A stretch of DNA of 45,315 nucleotides, taken from an uncultured Bacillota bacterium (GTDB lineage: Bacteria; Bacillota; Clostridia; Oscillospirales; Oscillospiraceae). Within the stretch, counting starts at the first letter, position 1. Each line of letters starts with the position of its first letter. Below, in pieces: positions 23,493 to 32,707 of the stretch. The stretch lies in contig CAMTMZ010000019.1 of assembly GCA_947073765.1 (NCBI GenBank), positions 1 to 45,315 of the forward strand. Direction: 5' to 3'. A program made the translations under genes and the position numbers. The notes beneath the pieces are model-generated. The model saw only the letters and a program-made list of their open reading frames with translations, did not search any database and had not been told where the DNA came from.

Positions 23493-23515
23493 TGGCAGCC
23501 GGAGAAGGATTCGAA
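23493..23515. repeat. attL core (copy of tRNA-Gln 3' end)
   Basis: 23 bp beginning TGGCAGCCGG and ending GATTCGAA, identical to 32634-32656; flanking bases differ on both sides. Confidence 0.92.
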
Positions 23516-23610: not shown

Positions 23611-23649
23611 TAAAGGGTAGGAAAGCGGCTAAAGGGTCAATTAAAGGGT
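23611..23649 (+). repeat. Left integrase arm-type sites
   Basis: TAAAGGGT occurs at 23611-23618, 23630-23637 and 23642-23649; the last two form TAAAGGGT-CAAT-TAAAGGGT, repeated exactly and in the same orientation near the right end (32514-32533). Position about 115 bases inside attL fits arm-type binding sites of a lambda/Tn916-type integrase. Confidence 0.65.
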
Positions 23650-23790
23650 AAAAGGTGTCCCATAAACCGGACAGCAAATCCCGCTCCAGTGATGTGCCCA
23701 TCTGTGGGCATGGGGCTTTTGCTACTTTTGCGGCTTTTGCTCCCCGGTTCAGGGGAGTGCTTAATTTTCAGCAGACCCCAGATTTGCGCC

Positions 23791-24145
23791 GGTCTCCTGA
23801 AATTTCAGGAGACCTCAGATTTGGGGGCAGTTCATCAGCAATTTTTCGCTCGCCAAATTTGGCGAGCGTAGTTTTCCCAAAAATTGGGGAGGTTGGAGGA
23901 GCCCCCACAATTAAGGACAGCGCAATTTTGCGTTCTCCAAAATTGGATTGTCGCAACTTCTTGCGATATAAAAAGGGAGGTCAAATTTGACACAGGGGGT
24001 GCCGGAAATTTCCGGCAGGGCCAGCGCCGCCAAAATTGGCGAGATTGGACGGGTCCAAATCTGGACTGGTTGGTAACGAGCGCAAAATTGAGCCCAGTTC
24101 ATCAGGGGGACGAAATTTCGTCCTCCCTGCGGGAAATTTCCCGCA
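23791..24145. repeat. Array of twelve short palindromes, mostly A/T-centred
   Basis: In 355 bp without a gene, twelve dyads follow each other: 23791-23814, 23847-23868, 23876-23888, 23921-23932, 23936-23947, 23951-23966, 23980-23991, 24000-24017, 24028-24041, 24053-24066, 24108-24123 and 24128-24145. Six are perfect palindromes centred on AAATTT (first, second, seventh, eighth, eleventh, twelfth); others have AA, TT or AAA between CAA/TTG-type arms. The arms differ between units (GGTCTCCTG, CGCTCGCC, TGCCGG, GGACG, TGCGGG) yet each pairs with itself. CAGTTCATCAG occurs twice within the array. The rest of 23516-24225 shows no gene. Confidence 0.85.
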
Positions 24146-24225: not shown

Positions 24226-24420
24226 CTACCGGAGCAATCCCCGGACAAGCCGGAGAATCAGGTCAAGGCCCCGATCATCAGCCTTCTCCAACAGTTTGAT
24301 GATCTCCAGCCAAACCGCCGTAACCTCCTTCTCGTTCTCAGTCAGTGGACGGTTGATTAGCTGCTCCTGAAACGCTATGAATGCCTCTGGAGCGGCGGGG
24401 GAGGTAAAGGGTTGGGTCAT
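24226..24420 (-). CDS. Small unknown protein of the element
   Basis: 64 residues, mostly helical, with a long amphipathic helix (ENEKEVTAVWLEIIKLLEKA, then LDLILRLVRGLLR). No family recognised. The frame extends upstream to 24471, but the ATG at 24420 overlaps the preceding gene's stop by 4 nt (ATGA) and is the likely start. Last gene before the terminator. Confidence 0.6.
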   Translation of the reverse strand: MTQPFTSPAAPEAFIAFQEQLINRPLTENEKEVTAVWLEIIKLLEKADDRGLDLILRLVRGLLR

Positions 24421-24812
24421 TCCTCTACCCCCAATTCTTCCGCTCTGTGCTTCATGCAGCGGAGCACCCAATCACACAAAATCGCCATAGCTTCCATGTA
24501 CATATTAGGTGGAAGGGCTTTCCGAAGCGGCTTCTCCCAGAACTCCACACGGCTTGTCCACTCATCATCTTTGGGAGTGAAAGTCAAAGCGTGTTGGACT
24601 TCTTTGGGAAAGCTGTGGAACACATCCCGGACGGGGCTCCACTTTTCCTCATAGAACAGACACGCCTCTGGGGTAAAACCCCAATAGCCAAAATCAACCA
24701 CTGGCACCCGATAGACTTTCGCCAGGTGGGCCGGGCTTCCCTCTTTCCGCTCCCTGCGGACCTGGGCCGTCAATTTGACAGCGGTTGTGATATCTGCAAG
24801 AATGTTTTGCAT
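24417..24812 (-). CDS. Unknown protein of the element
   Basis: 131 residues, soluble, rich in aromatic and charged residues (VPVVDFGYWGFTPEACLFYE). No family recognised. AAGGAGGA lies upstream of the ATG, and the stop overlaps the next gene by 4 nt. Because the element has no known packaging or interference gene, this and its small neighbour are candidates for element-specific functions; that is inference only. Confidence 0.65.
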   Translation of the reverse strand: MQNILADITTAVKLTAQVRRERKEGSPAHLAKVYRVPVVDFGYWGFTPEACLFYEEKWSPVRDVFHSFPKEVQHALTFTPKDDEWTSRVEFWEKPLRKALPPNMYMEAMAILCDWVLRCMKHRAEELGVEE

Positions 24813-26925: not shown

Positions 26926-27411
26926 TCACATCTGGCCTAACAGCCATTCAAAGCCGGGGAGCGTGGATATCTGCGCTCCCTGAATCCCCTGCTTCTCCAG
27001 TTCGGTGGCGGCTTCCTCCCTACTGCATCCAAGGACAGCGGCTATATCATCCAGGCTGAAAAGCTCCTCCTTGCCGCTCTCCATCGAGAGGGCCAGCCGG
27101 GCACCGACTAGACAAGCCTCCAGGGAGAGATCACGGTCAAGGCCGCTTTGCACAATATTCTGCACAATTCCCAGATAGACACCAAACCTGTCTGCAATGG
27201 ACTGGAGCTTGTCCGCATTCTCAAACATGGGCATATGCTTTGCGGAGCACTTTTCACAGAAAGCGCTTGCCTCCTCCACATCTCCTCCAGTACATTCCAG
27301 GATATCGGCAAGGTCGATCTGGTGCATGGCGCCGCACTTCGGGCACTTTGCAAAGGTATTGCCATAGTTGATGGGGGTAAACTCCCCAGATTCACTTTTC
27401 ACGTACAGCAT
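26926..27411 (-). CDS. Zinc-ribbon protein of unknown function
   Basis: 161 residues. N-terminal CPKC (about residue 23) and CEKC (about 53) pairs suggest one zinc ribbon. The C-terminal half has a helix-turn-helix-like LDDIAAVLGCSREEAATELE. AAAGGAGA precedes the ATG. No family name can be given; a regulator or a replication accessory is possible from its place in the replication operon. Confidence 0.7.
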   Translation of the reverse strand: MLYVKSESGEFTPINYGNTFAKCPKCGAMHQIDLADILECTGGDVEEASAFCEKCSAKHMPMFENADKLQSIADRFGVYLGIVQNIVQSGLDRDLSLEACLVGARLALSMESGKEELFSLDDIAAVLGCSREEAATELEKQGIQGAQISTLPGFEWLLGQM

Positions 27412-27792: not shown

Positions 27793-29070
27793 TCACACAT
27801 ATTTCAGCCGTTCATGGGCCGTTGGCCGAATCCGGCCATTGTTCAGATACCAGTTGAACAGAAGTTCACTCCCAGCTGGACCATGCCGGTTCTTTGCCAC
27901 GGACGCCACCAGAGGAGCGGGACCGTTTTTGTCCTCATACTGCGGGCGGTGAAGCAGCAGCACTCCGTCAGCGTCTTGTTCGATAGCTCCACTGTCTCTC
28001 AGGTCAGACAGTCTGGGCGGGCCCTTGCGTCCCTCTAACTCCCGGTTCAACTGAGCCAGGCACAAAATCGGGATATTCAATGAAAGAGCCAGCCGTTTCA
28101 AGCTGTTGCTGGTTTCGGTGACACGTTCATATAGGGACTTTCCTGGACTGTGCTGGATAAGGCCCAGGTAATCCACGACCACTAGCCCGCAGTGCTTCAC
28201 CTGTCGGGCTTGGACACCAATACTTGACACAGTGGCCCGCCGCTCCTGATTGAAGAAAAGCTGTCTTGCGTGGAGCTTGTCCATAGCGTCAGCGATCATC
28301 TGATTCTCAACATCCGATAGACTATGCAGAAGAATCCTCGTTGTAGATACCCCAGTCTCCGCAGCCAGCCGCCGGGCGGTCAGCTGAACCACAGGCATTT
28401 CCAAACTGATGAACAGCACCGGAGTTCCCGCAGCGGCCACCTTTTCCGCAATGGACAGCCCCAGGGTGCTTTTTCCACAGCCTGGGCGAGCTCCCAGGAT
28501 ATACAATCCTCCATCTACCAGCCCACCGCCCAGAGCGTTATCCAGGGAATTGTATCCGGTCGAGACAAAGGCTTTTGCGGTCCCGTCATCAATGGTGATC
28601 CGGCGGTCCATAAACTCTGACATGGCATCTGCTGAAGATACCAGGGTATGAGAATGGTCCCGCTCCACGGCCTGCTGTATTGCGCCCTGGAGGTCAACAC
28701 AGACGATCTGCGGCGGCTCCTCCCGGCCCAAACGGAGGTATGCGCTGGATACGGCCTCCATCAGCCCGGAGCGGAGCATATCGTTTTTCATACCCTGGAT
28801 ATGTACGTCAAGGTCAGATACCGCTGACAACTCCATAGCTGAGGACAGGTCTTGAATAGTCAGGGCTGTCCCGTTGGAAGCGGCCTCTGCTTTGATGGTC
28901 ACAGGATCAACGGGCTTTCCATCATCCTCCAGGGAACAGGCCGCAGTAAATACGACCCGCCCCAGTTCGGTTTGGAAATCATCAGCGGACAACTCCGCCC
29001 GGACCACTTGCAGGGTCCTATGATCTCCCAAGATAGCACCAGCGACGATCATTTCAGAATCAAGGGCCAT
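27793..29070 (-). CDS. DnaB-like replicative helicase
   Basis: 425 residues. N-terminal helical DnaB domain (DSEMIVAGAILGD, FTAACSLEDDGKPVD), then a RecA-like domain with Walker A GARPGCGKST (about 193-202), LFISLEMP, Walker B LVVVDYLGLIQ, and the DnaB motif region AQLNRELEGRKGPPRLSDLR. The N-terminal domain is shorter than in bacterial DnaB. The ATG at 29070 with GGAGG upstream fits the DnaB start; the longer frame to 29160 runs inside the initiator gene. It overlaps that gene by 11 nt and probably drives autonomous replication of the excised element. Confidence 0.9.
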   Translation of the reverse strand: MALDSEMIVAGAILGDHRTLQVVRAELSADDFQTELGRVVFTAACSLEDDGKPVDPVTIKAEAASNGTALTIQDLSSAMELSAVSDLDVHIQGMKNDMLRSGLMEAVSSAYLRLGREEPPQIVCVDLQGAIQQAVERDHSHTLVSSADAMSEFMDRRITIDDGTAKAFVSTGYNSLDNALGGGLVDGGLYILGARPGCGKSTLGLSIAEKVAAAGTPVLFISLEMPVVQLTARRLAAETGVSTTRILLHSLSDVENQMIADAMDKLHARQLFFNQERRATVSSIGVQARQVKHCGLVVVDYLGLIQHSPGKSLYERVTETSNSLKRLALSLNIPILCLAQLNRELEGRKGPPRLSDLRDSGAIEQDADGVLLLHRPQYEDKNGPAPLVASVAKNRHGPAGSELLFNWYLNNGRIRPTAHERLKYV

Positions 29071-29758
29071 CTGGCACGTCCACCTCCTCACCATCGACAA
29101 TTTCAGTGTGATAGGCCACCCTGGGCATCGTGGGGAGCTGTTCGGCTTGGGATGATCCATCCCGGCGCTCCCAGCTCGAAATAGCGGACTTCCAGGACCG
29201 CATTTTGTTCTTTCCTACCATCCAGCCCTTGCTCTCGTAGAATGATACGAAAGCTACCGGGTCCACGCTACTGTGTCGCTCTTGACAGTAGGCTTGAACT
29301 TCATCAACAGTCGGAGGAATGAAACGGGGGCGGGGCGGCTTGTACGCCCCCTCTCTTTCCTTAACTATACTATCCTTACCTATACTTACCTCGGTTTCCC
29401 GCTGGTTACCATCTGGTTGCCAAATGGGTTCCACTTGGTTGCCATCCGCTAATTTGACCAGCAATTCAGCATAAACACTCCGATGATATCGGTCTTTTCG
29501 GAGCTGGTTATTGATCCGCCAATCGGTTATGTAGCTCACAAGGTCCTCATTCAAGACGGTGATGAAGCCCTTCGCCACAAGGACCCGTAAATCATCCTCT
29601 GCGGCTCCAGTGGTGCGGATGACCGTGAACGCCTCCACTACACCGTCGTCATCTGCGGCCATGCCCAGGTCGTAATACAGCAACCTCGATGTCTGCGGCA
29701 TCCGCAGGAATCTGGCAGAGCTCACAACCGCCTTTGAAAACATACGTCTTTCAGCCAT
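29060..29758 (-). CDS. Replication initiator / DnaD-like phage replisome protein
   Basis: 232 residues. N-terminal winged-helix part (MPQTSRLLYYDLGMAADDDG, LVAKGFITVLNEDLVSYITD, INNQLRKDRYHRSVY) as in phage replisome-organiser proteins, a charged linker (about 105-140), and a C-terminal PPTVDEVQAYCQERHSSVDP...WKSAISSWERRD segment. Such proteins bind the origin and load the helicase encoded next. The helicase overlap supports coupled synthesis. Exact family not certain. Confidence 0.82.
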   Translation of the reverse strand: MAERRMFSKAVVSSARFLRMPQTSRLLYYDLGMAADDDGVVEAFTVIRTTGAAEDDLRVLVAKGFITVLNEDLVSYITDWRINNQLRKDRYHRSVYAELLVKLADGNQVEPIWQPDGNQRETEVSIGKDSIVKEREGAYKPPRPRFIPPTVDEVQAYCQERHSSVDPVAFVSFYESKGWMVGKNKMRSWKSAISSWERRDGSSQAEQLPTMPRVAYHTEIVDGEEVDVPDGP

Positions 29759-30435: not shown

Positions 30436-30530
30436 TATTTTAGCACACAACAAGAGCGTTATCAAGATTGAAACAAAAGTTTCAACAGATAATAACAATT
30501 ATAGAGCGTTTTAGATTGGAGTGCATATAC

Positions 30531-31226
30531 ATGGAGCGCAAAAATGACCGTTTGCCCATATTTACAGAAAGATTTAGAGAACTGCAAGGAGAGAGGTCTA
30601 ACACTGAATTCGCCGATTTCTTGGGGATTTCCAGGCAGACAGTAGGCTTCTATTGTAATGGCGATCGTGTCCCGGACGCTTTGACATTGGTTAAGATTTC
30701 TCAGAAATGTGGGGTATCTACGGACTGGATTCTAGGCCTGACAAAAGATAAATCTTCACAGCCTAGAGTAGCAGATATGCTGGGAATATCATCAACAGCC
30801 GTAGATAAACTTATGGAGGTTTCTAAGTATTTTCCTGATATACTATTGGATATTTTGTCATCTGATGGTTTTTTAGGATTTATAGTCCAAATAAATCACC
30901 TTAAAATAGGTGTTTCAGCAACAAAACAGGCCCATGAAATGGTTCATAAAGAAGGCTTATGTATAAGTCATGAGAAAAAAAATGCACTTAAAGAATTTGA
31001 GGGTATGATGAGCGAATTTCTTGGTTATCCTGTTTCTTTTGTTGAGCCTCGTCATGCATTGTATGGAGAACTAGATAGCGTTAAAATGGCGGCTGAAAAT
31101 CTCGCAAAAGAAATATCCGGATACAATAACCTCTCAACCGCAGAGCTACTTGACAGCATATACGATTTTGAAGAAAGGGATATTAAGAAATTTTCCGAGT
31201 ATATCCGCAATAAGTACGACAAATAA
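30531..31226 (+). CDS. XRE-family repressor of the element
   Basis: 231 residues. HTH_3 domain near residues 10-65 (ERFRELQGERSNTEFADFLG, ISRQTVGFYCNGDRVPDALT, LVKISQKCGVSTDWILG), then a long C-terminal domain of unknown type with no S24 protease motif. Control by self-cleavage is therefore unlikely, and induction may come through a protein partner as for satellite Stl repressors. GGAG lies upstream of the ATG at 30531; the longer frame to 30468 has no site. A/T-richer than neighbours. Confidence 0.83.
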   Translation: MERKNDRLPIFTERFRELQGERSNTEFADFLGISRQTVGFYCNGDRVPDALTLVKISQKCGVSTDWILGLTKDKSSQPRVADMLGISSTAVDKLMEVSKYFPDILLDILSSDGFLGFIVQINHLKIGVSATKQAHEMVHKEGLCISHEKKNALKEFEGMMSEFLGYPVSFVEPRHALYGELDSVKMAAENLAKEISGYNNLSTAELLDSIYDFEERDIKKFSEYIRNKYDK

Positions 31227-31268: not shown

Positions 31269-31337
31269 CGGCTATAGGGGCAACAAACTTTGCGGCCTGT
31301 TGCTCCTCCATCATATCAGGAACAGGAGGAAAAATCA

Positions 31338-32516
31338 ATGGCAAGAAAATCAACACGAAATGCTCAGGGGAGCGGGACGATCAGGCAGCGGAGCGACGGA
31401 CGGTGGGAGTGTCGATACACCGTGGGCCGGGACCCTGGCACCGGGAAGCAGATTCAAAAATCTATCTATGGCAGCACTCAGGCGGAGGTTCGGAAAAAGT
31501 TGGCCCAGGCCGTGGCTGCTCTGGATACTGGGGATTATTTTGAACCGTCAAAAATGACACTGGCCCGGTGGGTGGAAATCTGGCTGGAGGAGTACACCGG
31601 CGACAAAAAATATTTGACAGTGAAGCACTACAAGGCTCAATGCAAAACCCACATTGTCCCCAACTTGGGTGCTGTGAAGCTGTCGGAGTTGACCACACCG
31701 CAGATACAGGCTTTTTACAACAAGCTCCAGCGGGGCGGGCTGGCCCCTAAAAGCGTCCGCAATGTTCACGGTATCCTCACCAAATGCCTGTCTACGGCGG
31801 TACAGGTGGGGTATCTGAGGGATAATCCAGCTTCCAGGGTCACGTTGCCGAAGGTCGAGAAAAAGGAGATATGCCCGCTCACAGACGAACAGGTAAAAGC
31901 GTTCCTTGAAGTATCCGCTGAGGACGATTATGAAATTATCCTGAAGGTGATCCTGTTCACCGGCCTCCGTGAAGCTGAGGCCACCGGCTTGACTTGGGAT
32001 GTGATCGACTTCAAGGCTGGGACGATTAAGGTCTGTAAGCAGCTCCAGAAGCGCCCTCTGAAAGACGGCGGCTTTACCTTCGCCCCACTGAAGAATAACA
32101 AGACCCGGATACTCAGACCCGCTCCCTTCGTTATGTCTCTATTGGAGCGCAGGAAACAGGAACAGATTACCCAAAAGCTGAAAGCGGGGCCCCTCTGGCA
32201 GGGGTGGGCCAGTCCGGAGGAGCAAAAGACAGCGCTGGTCTTCACCACGGCCACCGGCGGAAATCTTCACCCACAGACTGTCTATGAACATTACAAAAAG
32301 TTGGCTAAAAAAATCGGAGCACCAGAAAGCCGGGTGCATGATCTTCGTCATACCTTTGCCGTTTTGTCTCTCCAGAACGGTGACAGCGTGAAAACCGTAC
32401 AAGGGAACCTGGGCCATGCCACCGCCGCTTTCACCCTGGATGTCTACGGCCATGTCAGCGAGAAGATGAAAGAGGACAGTGCCCAGCGTATGGAAAAGTA
32501 CATTTCAAACCTGTAA
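31338..32516 (+). CDS. int: Tyrosine integrase of the element
   Basis: 392 residues. N-terminal arm-binding AP2-like domain (GSGTIRQRSDGRWECRYTVG), SAM-like core-binding domain (about 70-165), catalytic domain with R211 (TGLREAEATGL), H334-x-x-R337 (HDLRHTF), H360 (GNLGH) and nucleophile Y370 (DVYGHVSE). Complete active site. AGGAGG lies before the ATG at 31338; the frame to 31290 is rejected. It recombines at the tRNA-Gln core 118 bases downstream. Its TAA stop (32514-32516) is part of the right arm-type repeat. Confidence 0.95.
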   Translation: MARKSTRNAQGSGTIRQRSDGRWECRYTVGRDPGTGKQIQKSIYGSTQAEVRKKLAQAVAALDTGDYFEPSKMTLARWVEIWLEEYTGDKKYLTVKHYKAQCKTHIVPNLGAVKLSELTTPQIQAFYNKLQRGGLAPKSVRNVHGILTKCLSTAVQVGYLRDNPASRVTLPKVEKKEICPLTDEQVKAFLEVSAEDDYEIILKVILFTGLREAEATGLTWDVIDFKAGTIKVCKQLQKRPLKDGGFTFAPLKNNKTRILRPAPFVMSLLERRKQEQITQKLKAGPLWQGWASPEEQKTALVFTTATGGNLHPQTVYEHYKKLAKKIGAPESRVHDLRHTFAVLSLQNGDSVKTVQGNLGHATAAFTLDVYGHVSEKMKEDSAQRMEKYISNL

Positions 32517-32533
32517 AGGGTCAATTAAAGGGT
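32514..32533 (+). repeat. Right integrase arm-type site
   Basis: TAAAGGGT-CAAT-TAAAGGGT, identical and in the same direction to 23630-23649, 100 bases inside attR. The integrase stop codon is its first three bases. Confidence 0.65.
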
Positions 32534-32633: not shown

Positions 32634-32656
32634 TGGCAGCCGGAGAAGGATTCGAA
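32634..32656. repeat. attR core (3' end of tRNA-Gln)
   Basis: 23 bp identical to attL at 23493-23515; it restores the CCA, acceptor 3' strand and part of the T arm of the tRNA. Confidence 0.92.
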
Positions 32657-32707
32657 CCCTCACAAACAGAGTCAGAGTCTGTCGTGCTACCCTTACACAA
32701 TCCGGCT
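32634..32707 (-). tRNA. tRNA-Gln (anticodon CTG)
   Basis: 74 nt with encoded CCA. Acceptor AGCCGGA pairs with TCCGGCT, discriminator G; D arm GTGT/GCAC; anticodon stem ACAGA/TCTGT with loop CTCTGAC (anticodon CTG, reads CAG); T arm GAGGG/CCTTC with loop TTCGAAT. Its last 23 bases are the integration core of the element, which lies immediately downstream, so the intact gene depends on sequence now carried at the element's right end. Confidence 0.95.

Follow-up and report, generated by a model that had tools for sequence, protein, structure and literature searches.

The window analysed here, the whole stretch of 45,315 nucleotides, contains an integrated element of 9,164 bases whose ends are formed by a 23-bp direct repeat at a tRNA-Gln gene. 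attL (23493..23515) repeats the 3'-end of this gene, and attR (32634..32656) lies within the gene itself (32634-32707, minus strand). A 20-bp repeat, TAAAGGGTCAATTAAAGGGT, is present at both element ends (23630..23649 and 32514-32533, the latter beside the integrase gene), and its copies probably represent integrase arm-type sites. Profile matches identified a cI-like repressor (30468..31226) and a tyrosine integrase (31290..32516) on the plus strand and a DnaD-like helicase loader (29060..29758) on the minus strand, and Pfam and PHROGs a DnaB-like helicase (27793..29160, minus strand). An excisionase-like HTH protein and a RusA/PDDEXK-type nuclease are also encoded. A 131-aa gene (24417..24812, minus strand), which adjoins the array described below and lies close to where the leftward operon ends, had no family match in Pfam and PHROGs profile searches.

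Structural genes were sought among 15 ORFs of the element, ten of which were compared with Pfam and PHROGs and five small ones with PHROGs only; none exceeded the Pfam cut-off and none was clear. Weak matches were those of GpA_ATPase, below the cut-off, to a 161-aa protein (26926..27411, minus strand) and of a terminase-small-subunit PHROG (E 0.004) to a 64-aa HTH protein. Thus, the features of a PICI-like element, namely an integrase, an att site at a tRNA gene, regulator and replication genes and no detected structural genes, are present, and from its gene content we call the element a putative satellite. The 161-aa protein is 94% identical in the second satellite of the same genome (C18), and full-length copies with 94-99% identity occur in C18 and in the contigs L011, L012 and L013. 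A partial copy was found in L014 of genome G310, otherwise only weak partial matches in 2 out of 400 genomes, and there were no matches among viral contigs. In the relative of the element in Flintibacter muris (L012:9119-9619, plus strand) DnaD-like N-terminal residues run into a DnaB-like C-terminal part. Judged by eye, this fused ORF is a deletion derivative; the far end of the L012 element also differs.

The array starts 276 bases inside attL and occupies 355 gene-free bases (23791..24145). It consists of 12 to 13 operator-like dyads with an A/T core and variable arms. Six of them are perfect palindromes of 12-24 bp centred on AAATTT, and the remaining 6-7 are short or imperfect, with centres AAAAATT, AATTTT, AAAATT, AAATCT or CTTC. 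The array begins with a perfect 24-bp palindrome with the half-site CCTG (23791..23814) and a perfect 22-bp palindrome with the half-site CGCC (23847..23868), both with an AAATTT centre. These are followed by 3-bp arms flanking AAAAATT (23876..23888), CGC arms flanking AATTTT (23921..23932), TCC arms flanking AAAATT (23936..23947) and the dyad TCGCAACTTCTTGCGA with an atypical centre (23951..23966). The perfect units GTCAAATTTGAC (23980..23991) and CCGG (24000..24017) again have AAATTT centres and precede a second CGCC unit (24028..24041) and a GTCC unit (24053..24066). A degenerate unit core (24083..24090) has GCGC and GAGC arms, and the homologous site in C18 reads GCTC..GAGC. The last two units, GACG (24108..24123; AACG..CGTT at the homologous site of L011) and CGGG (24128..24145), are perfect with AAATTT centres. 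Six different half-sites were counted among the seven strict units. The initial annotation had described this array as units which share a centre and differ in their arms from one to the next, and both parts of this description stand.

Perfect palindromes of at least 12 bp are six in the array compared to a mean of 0.10 and a maximum of 2 in 977 pieces of 355 bases drawn at random from the window. Hairpins cover 154 of its 355 bases, at most 66 elsewhere in the window and at most 109 among 20 stretches of the same genome. Folding against shuffled controls, which had been proposed as a check, gave a local z of -8.7 with 0 out of 60 dinucleotide shuffles equally low, and on either strand its folding was much stronger than that of shuffles. 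With a covariance model of the unit (R1), at least 25 matches at E<=10 were obtained in the host genome, of which 21 fell within three arrays (window, C18 and C11) and 4 elsewhere; these are lower bounds, as 150 out of 263 first-look candidates were scored. In other genomes single units found by the covariance model were mostly isolated. In an Rfam scan of the whole window tRNA alone reached the gathering score, and described RNA families were ruled out for the array. Cruciform extrusion was rejected by argument, the centres being AAATTT rather than TTTAAA, and integron attC-like hairpins were rejected by eye, the outer boxes of the units not being constant.

Seven more arrays were found in Oscillospiraceae mobile elements, and all eight are located near an integrase or att site. 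They represent three genera (g1, g30 and g50), their folding z ranges from -5.1 to -9.7, and in each case 0 out of 60 shuffles was as low. The C18 satellite (attL at L005:16680, tRNA-Pro) carries its array in the equivalent place. A MAG contig (L011, by its length and content the same as G453:C43) has a longer array whose ends match the window array with 93% over 204 bases and 86% over 95 bases, while the middle differs. In the window and in C18, for which att repeats were found, an att end lies beside the array, and presumably so in the related L011. A block between att and array (23656..23683, plus strand) is common to the window, C18 and L011; used as a pattern on 400 genomes, this att-side block recovered the own genome and one match with two mismatches (L015). 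The remaining arrays are in a prophage of the same genome (C11), in G122, in G050 and in two places of G370 (G370a and G370b). The gene order cI, array, integrase or integrase remnant is shared by C11, G122, G050 and G370b; the integrase ORF of G370b is short (185 aa). The position of the array is not due to one recombinase family, because G050 has a serine recombinase. An IS element separates G370a from a nearby tyrosine recombinase, and the G122 element encodes a 792-aa D5-type primase instead of DnaB. The C11 array has ordinary hairpin coverage, only one strict unit and a z of -6.6, and was recognized through similarity. Segments recur from array to array in mosaic fashion. The cI-like repressors beside four arrays (L023:13865-14557, L190:2164-3123, L191:6746-7309 and L227:7710-8591) share a proline/glutamate-rich tail (..PPEGAEGPQEGE and similar) and differ in the rest.

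Searches beyond these elements yielded no further array of this design. Matches of the array query among 200 genomes of the family were confined to the own genome, including C11, and there were none when array DNA was compared with phages and plasmids or when array pieces were used as patterns on viral contigs. Relatives of the C11 cI were matched in 111 out of 400 genomes, and the 30 loci read, one of them C11 itself, contained no additional array. There was also no array with 80 DnaD-like and 3 DnaB-like relatives in viral contigs, or in the Flavonifractor phage Chenonceau. Two clusters of another kind were seen, three TGTCCGAAAAAACGGACA-type repeats forming a different hairpin cluster in a viral contig (L103:12176-12253) and tandem GC-rich long hairpins with a coverage of 196/355 in another Oscillospiraceae genome (L156:3700-4080).

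In genome G417 two neighbouring covariance-model matches fall within a gene of the Rha type. This rha gene (L226:5625-6389, minus strand) has two tandem operator-like palindromes in its coding region, and its loop SKFGPVSTESKFGP is 9 residues longer than in the best relatives. In rha relatives the motif DFFIxSTY is immediately preceded by a short protein loop of variable sequence, and the DNA encoding this loop forms a palindrome around an AAATTT-like core. Across 45 rha genes this site scores 5.72 as a palindrome, compared to 3.16 (sd 0.98) for other segments of the same genes, and in 32 of the 45 it equals or exceeds the best control of its own gene. The rha palindrome is also present in named phages of Ruminococcus, Bacillus, Paenibacillus, Listeria, Lactobacillus (two), Brochothrix, Staphylococcus and Streptococcus. 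The rha genes of phi80 and P22 have reportedly been described as inhibitory in IHF mutants. In phiRg519T2 rha is located directly behind a cro-like gene. A viral contig bearing rha contains four A/T-core units within 400 bases (L383:11499).

From 46 and 44 overlapping loci 58 sites passed, of which 54 were distinct and 52 were used; the sites of L353 and L390, which are centred on another dyad, were dropped before the code count. Since a site was counted only with at least 3 out of 4 inner pairs, the high pairing at positions 1-4 of the dyad (0.92-1.0) is partly set by selection. Pairing is 0.63 at position 5, drops to 0.25 at position 6, rises again to 0.90 and 0.88 at positions 7 and 8, and is 0.62 at position 9 and 0.29-0.52 at positions 10-14. 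The unread position 6 in this profile suggests a protein dimer on double-stranded DNA. A scan of 48 loci, in about 11 of which another dyad than the rha site was taken, revealed no second copy of the gene's own palindrome near rha in the approximately 37 loci effectively tested. There was also none in phiRg519T2 and phiCD27.

The half-site bases of the 52 rha genes follow the recognition helix of Rha, H-X1-X2-L-x-X3-X4-I. Residue X1 is associated with base 4 (K with G in 15/15, A with A in 10/10, S with A in 8/8, D with C in 10/11 and N with G in 3/4), X2 with base 2 (H with C in 23/23, N with T in 15/15 and D with G in 9/9, the D site being read as CG), and X3X4 with base 1 (RD with C in 37/37; EK, ES, DK or KS with GG in 7/7). 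For X1 and X2 together 102 out of 104 letters fit, compared to a mean of 37 and a maximum of 58 in 2000 permutations, a fit that is partly by construction, since these 52 genes also served to define the helix classes. A cluster-wise permutation gave a single cluster at the thresholds used, and relatedness was controlled by a pair test. Among 25 close pairs, a difference in X1 class was accompanied by a different base 4 in 16/16 cases and a difference in X2 class by a different base 2 in 21/21. Close pairs of the same class (n=23) shared the bases (22 and 23). In eight genes outside the code set, from seven phages and L464, the fit is 7/8 for base 4, Javan105 being the exception, 8/8 for base 2, provided that K is assigned to C as in phiRg519T2, and 8/8 for base 1, in total 23 of 24 letters; phiSLT was left out because its site is identical to that of L341. 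Examples of natural helices are HAKLLRDI in phiRg519T2 and HTDLLRSI in yoqD of the SP-beta-like phage Goe13. Residues 65 and 67 correspond to half-site positions 8-7 (KE with AC in 9/9, TR with CT in 7/7, QK or NK with GA in 18/21).

In a predicted structure of Rha (pLDDT 86) helices span residues 17-23 and 28-44 and strands residues 56-62 and 68-75. The residues X1-X4 (29, 30, 33 and 34) are placed at the start of the second helix and residues 65 and 67 between the two strands. According to this model residues 17-75 could be a helix-turn-helix followed by a hairpin as a possible wing. No Rha relative was found in the PDB by sequence at E<=0.1, and the model had no fold match at E<=0.001. Because the half-sites follow the recognition helix, also between close relatives and in further genes, Rha very probably reads an operator within its own gene, and the location of this operator suggests autoregulation. 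The initial annotation had considered a protein that reads only the centre of the units. This is not supported by the rha genes, in which the arms vary with the recognition helix.

In related arrays the best units agree with rha palindromes at 22-24 out of 25 bases. The G370b unit TACTGTCCCCAAAATTGGGGTGAGTG and the rha site of L382, TACTGACCCCAAAATTGGGGTGAGTG, agree in 24/25 bases, and the C18 and G370b units TACTGAGCTCAAAATTGAGCCCAG each agree with the rha site of L318 in 24 of 25 compared bases. An inner arm of the rha type was present in 24 out of 56 strict array units compared to 62 out of 377 control hairpins (p = 2e-5), the controls comprising hairpins of background stretches and of loci with isolated model matches. 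The full rha grammar, inner and outer, was fitted by 11/56 array units and 13/377 controls (p = 4e-5), and outer classes by 46/112 and 163/754 (p = 3e-5). The inner grammar alone provides a weak contrast (42/56 vs 248/377). Among pure A/T cores, those with A followed by T make up 35/40 in arrays and 33/37 in rha sites compared to 46/133 in controls.

In the window array the GTCC unit is the sole one of seven strict units which fits the full rha grammar. The inner half-sites CCTG, CCGG and CGGG are readable by the code, with HDNLxA and HD[DEQ]LxE as predicted helices. CGCC has a G at base 3, for which the code offers a single precedent, one phage with X2 = K, and GACG falls outside the code. 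CGCC, GACG and other half-sites of the window had no counterpart in the rha set analysed. Among the 80 loci listed in a scan for rha operators of the type G-AAATTT-C, at least one was a new rha (GCTG with the helix HKNLLADI, as predicted), and none was an rha with the half-sites of the window array. Hence, the assignment to Rha operators is weaker for the window array than for C18, G370b and L011. By design, position and shared segments the window array belongs with the arrays that match rha.

Pairing within the arrays was followed in homologous segments. Seven were compared, and ten units in three of them were scorable, with 71 paired positions in total. One-sided changes broke 14 of these, while one compensated and one uncompensated double change were observed. 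Compensated or replaced arms were seen by eye as single examples only (24108-24123 and 24128-24145, each compared to L011). Loss of pairing in homologous elements had been named beforehand as an observation that would speak against selection on the arms, and this is partly what was found. The loss is about what is expected neutrally from the overall divergence of 11%. Unlike in the arrays, arms and protein change together in the rha genes. The array arms seem to have been acquired as ready palindromes and to be decaying since.

On balance, we regard it as rather probable that Rha-type operators of many specificities are banked in the array, which thereby captures the Rha of other phages. This reading is based on the observations that the rha palindromes follow the Rha helix and that units of related arrays nearly match these palindromes. 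Rha dimers would bind the array palindromes as double-stranded DNA, and different units would answer to different Rha types. At E<=0.001 Phage_pRha was found in none of six genomes besides G417, five of which carry arrays and some of which are incomplete. Autoregulation is of no use to an element that lacks rha, so the array sites would meet the Rha of other phages, and the element, residing in a genome without detected rha, may capture Rha made by such phages in the same cell. One of the alternatives listed by the initial annotation, a decoy for a helper-phage protein, would agree with this capture.

How capture could serve the element is a separate question. A sink for foreign Rha comes somewhat short of an even chance in our estimate and is favoured somewhat over a sensor, although one site per specificity would be a weak sink unless the element is amplified. 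The mobile elements may furthermore keep a renewable, phage-derived operator bank as an immune memory which works by capturing proteins, loses old units by decay and gains new ones; we put this forward tentatively, as a possibility on the unlikely side. A local sensor, in which bound Rha of an incoming or co-resident phage alters integrase expression or excision, is likewise possible though somewhat doubtful. The location of 8 out of 8 arrays near an integrase or att site would agree with such a sensor. However, the place beside int and att is a common cargo site, and the position relative to int differs, the arrays being upstream of int or across attP. Furthermore, array length and spacing vary, and in C11 a promoter-like sequence lies between array and int.

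Instead of binding Rha, the arrays might be debris or donor cassettes, that is, rha pieces gathered by recombination that have no regulatory role or serve to swap rha specificity. The near-neutral decay of pairing and the mosaic sharing of segments fit this explanation, as does a G370b unit which, judged by eye, continues into a stretch resembling the rha sequence after the palindrome. In contrast, the units are little more than the palindrome, are densely packed and occur in three genera, and the five genomes with arrays that were searched yielded no rha. Outside the four inner positions the dyads also remain above background (0.48-0.61 at positions 5-9 vs 0.25). We consider this explanation improbable.

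An action at the RNA level is less probable still. Hairpins of a transcribed array would base-pair with their counterparts in rha mRNA, and the very strong folding of both strands and the near identity of units to rha segments could be adduced for this. The initial annotation had likewise considered selection on pairing in RNA or single-stranded DNA. Counted over half-site positions 1-9 of the rha coding strand, 29 mismatches are A.C and 7 are G.T, the opposite of what an RNA helix would give, although codon constraint may contribute. Enclosed mismatches in the arrays are balanced (A.C 21, G.T 20). The preference for A followed by T in the cores of both arrays and rha sites also argues against such selection, and the recognition-helix code points to DNA. 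Moreover, among the top matches the units are, by eye, partly sense and partly antisense to the presumed transcript. An RNA hairpin library was thus rejected as first choice. A replication origin, proposed initially and compatible with the DnaB-like and DnaD-like proteins of the element and with a gene-free, repetitive region, is very unlikely, as arrays also lie between cI and int of the C11 prophage and of the G122 element with its D5-type primase, units of related arrays match rha palindromes rather than iterons of one initiator, and the arms differ between units so that repeated copies of one initiator site are not present.

The capture of foreign Rha by operator banks would connect an operator located within antirepressor genes with a protein-DNA code that can be read and with site clusters of many specificities in satellites and prophages. 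If this is true, the specificity of a widespread phage regulator is predictable from sequence, and phage-phage conflict has a layer of DNA decoys or sensing. If the reading as immune memory also holds, the targets of the bank can be read from the DNA via the recognition code. In titles and abstract openings, mostly from outside the subscription journals, we found no published account of Rha operators or of such arrays.

Among known systems the Rha antirepressors (Phage_pRha, PF09669) are closest, since their genes carry the same kind of palindrome and the best array units are identical to it except at 1 of 25 compared bases. In contrast to these genes, the array is non-coding, comprises many specificities and is found in genomes without detected rha. 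The lambda OR and OL regions and stoperators are also several palindromic sites of a phage regulator in non-coding DNA. However, these are variants of one site for one protein, whereas the array units differ at the apparent specificity bases. With PICIs and SaPIs the element shares its small size and integrated state, an integrase, a cI-like gene and replication genes, and possibly a response to phage proteins. A phage satellite that senses or interferes with its helper has been described (PMC11846896); it reportedly acts through the satellite's repressor protein, unlike the bank of DNA sites proposed here. CRISPR arrays are comparable by analogy only, as a collection of phage-related sequences whose ends are alike and whose middle varies, as in the window array and L011. 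Unlike CRISPR arrays, the array described here has no direct repeats, and its units are palindromic and resemble protein-binding sites.
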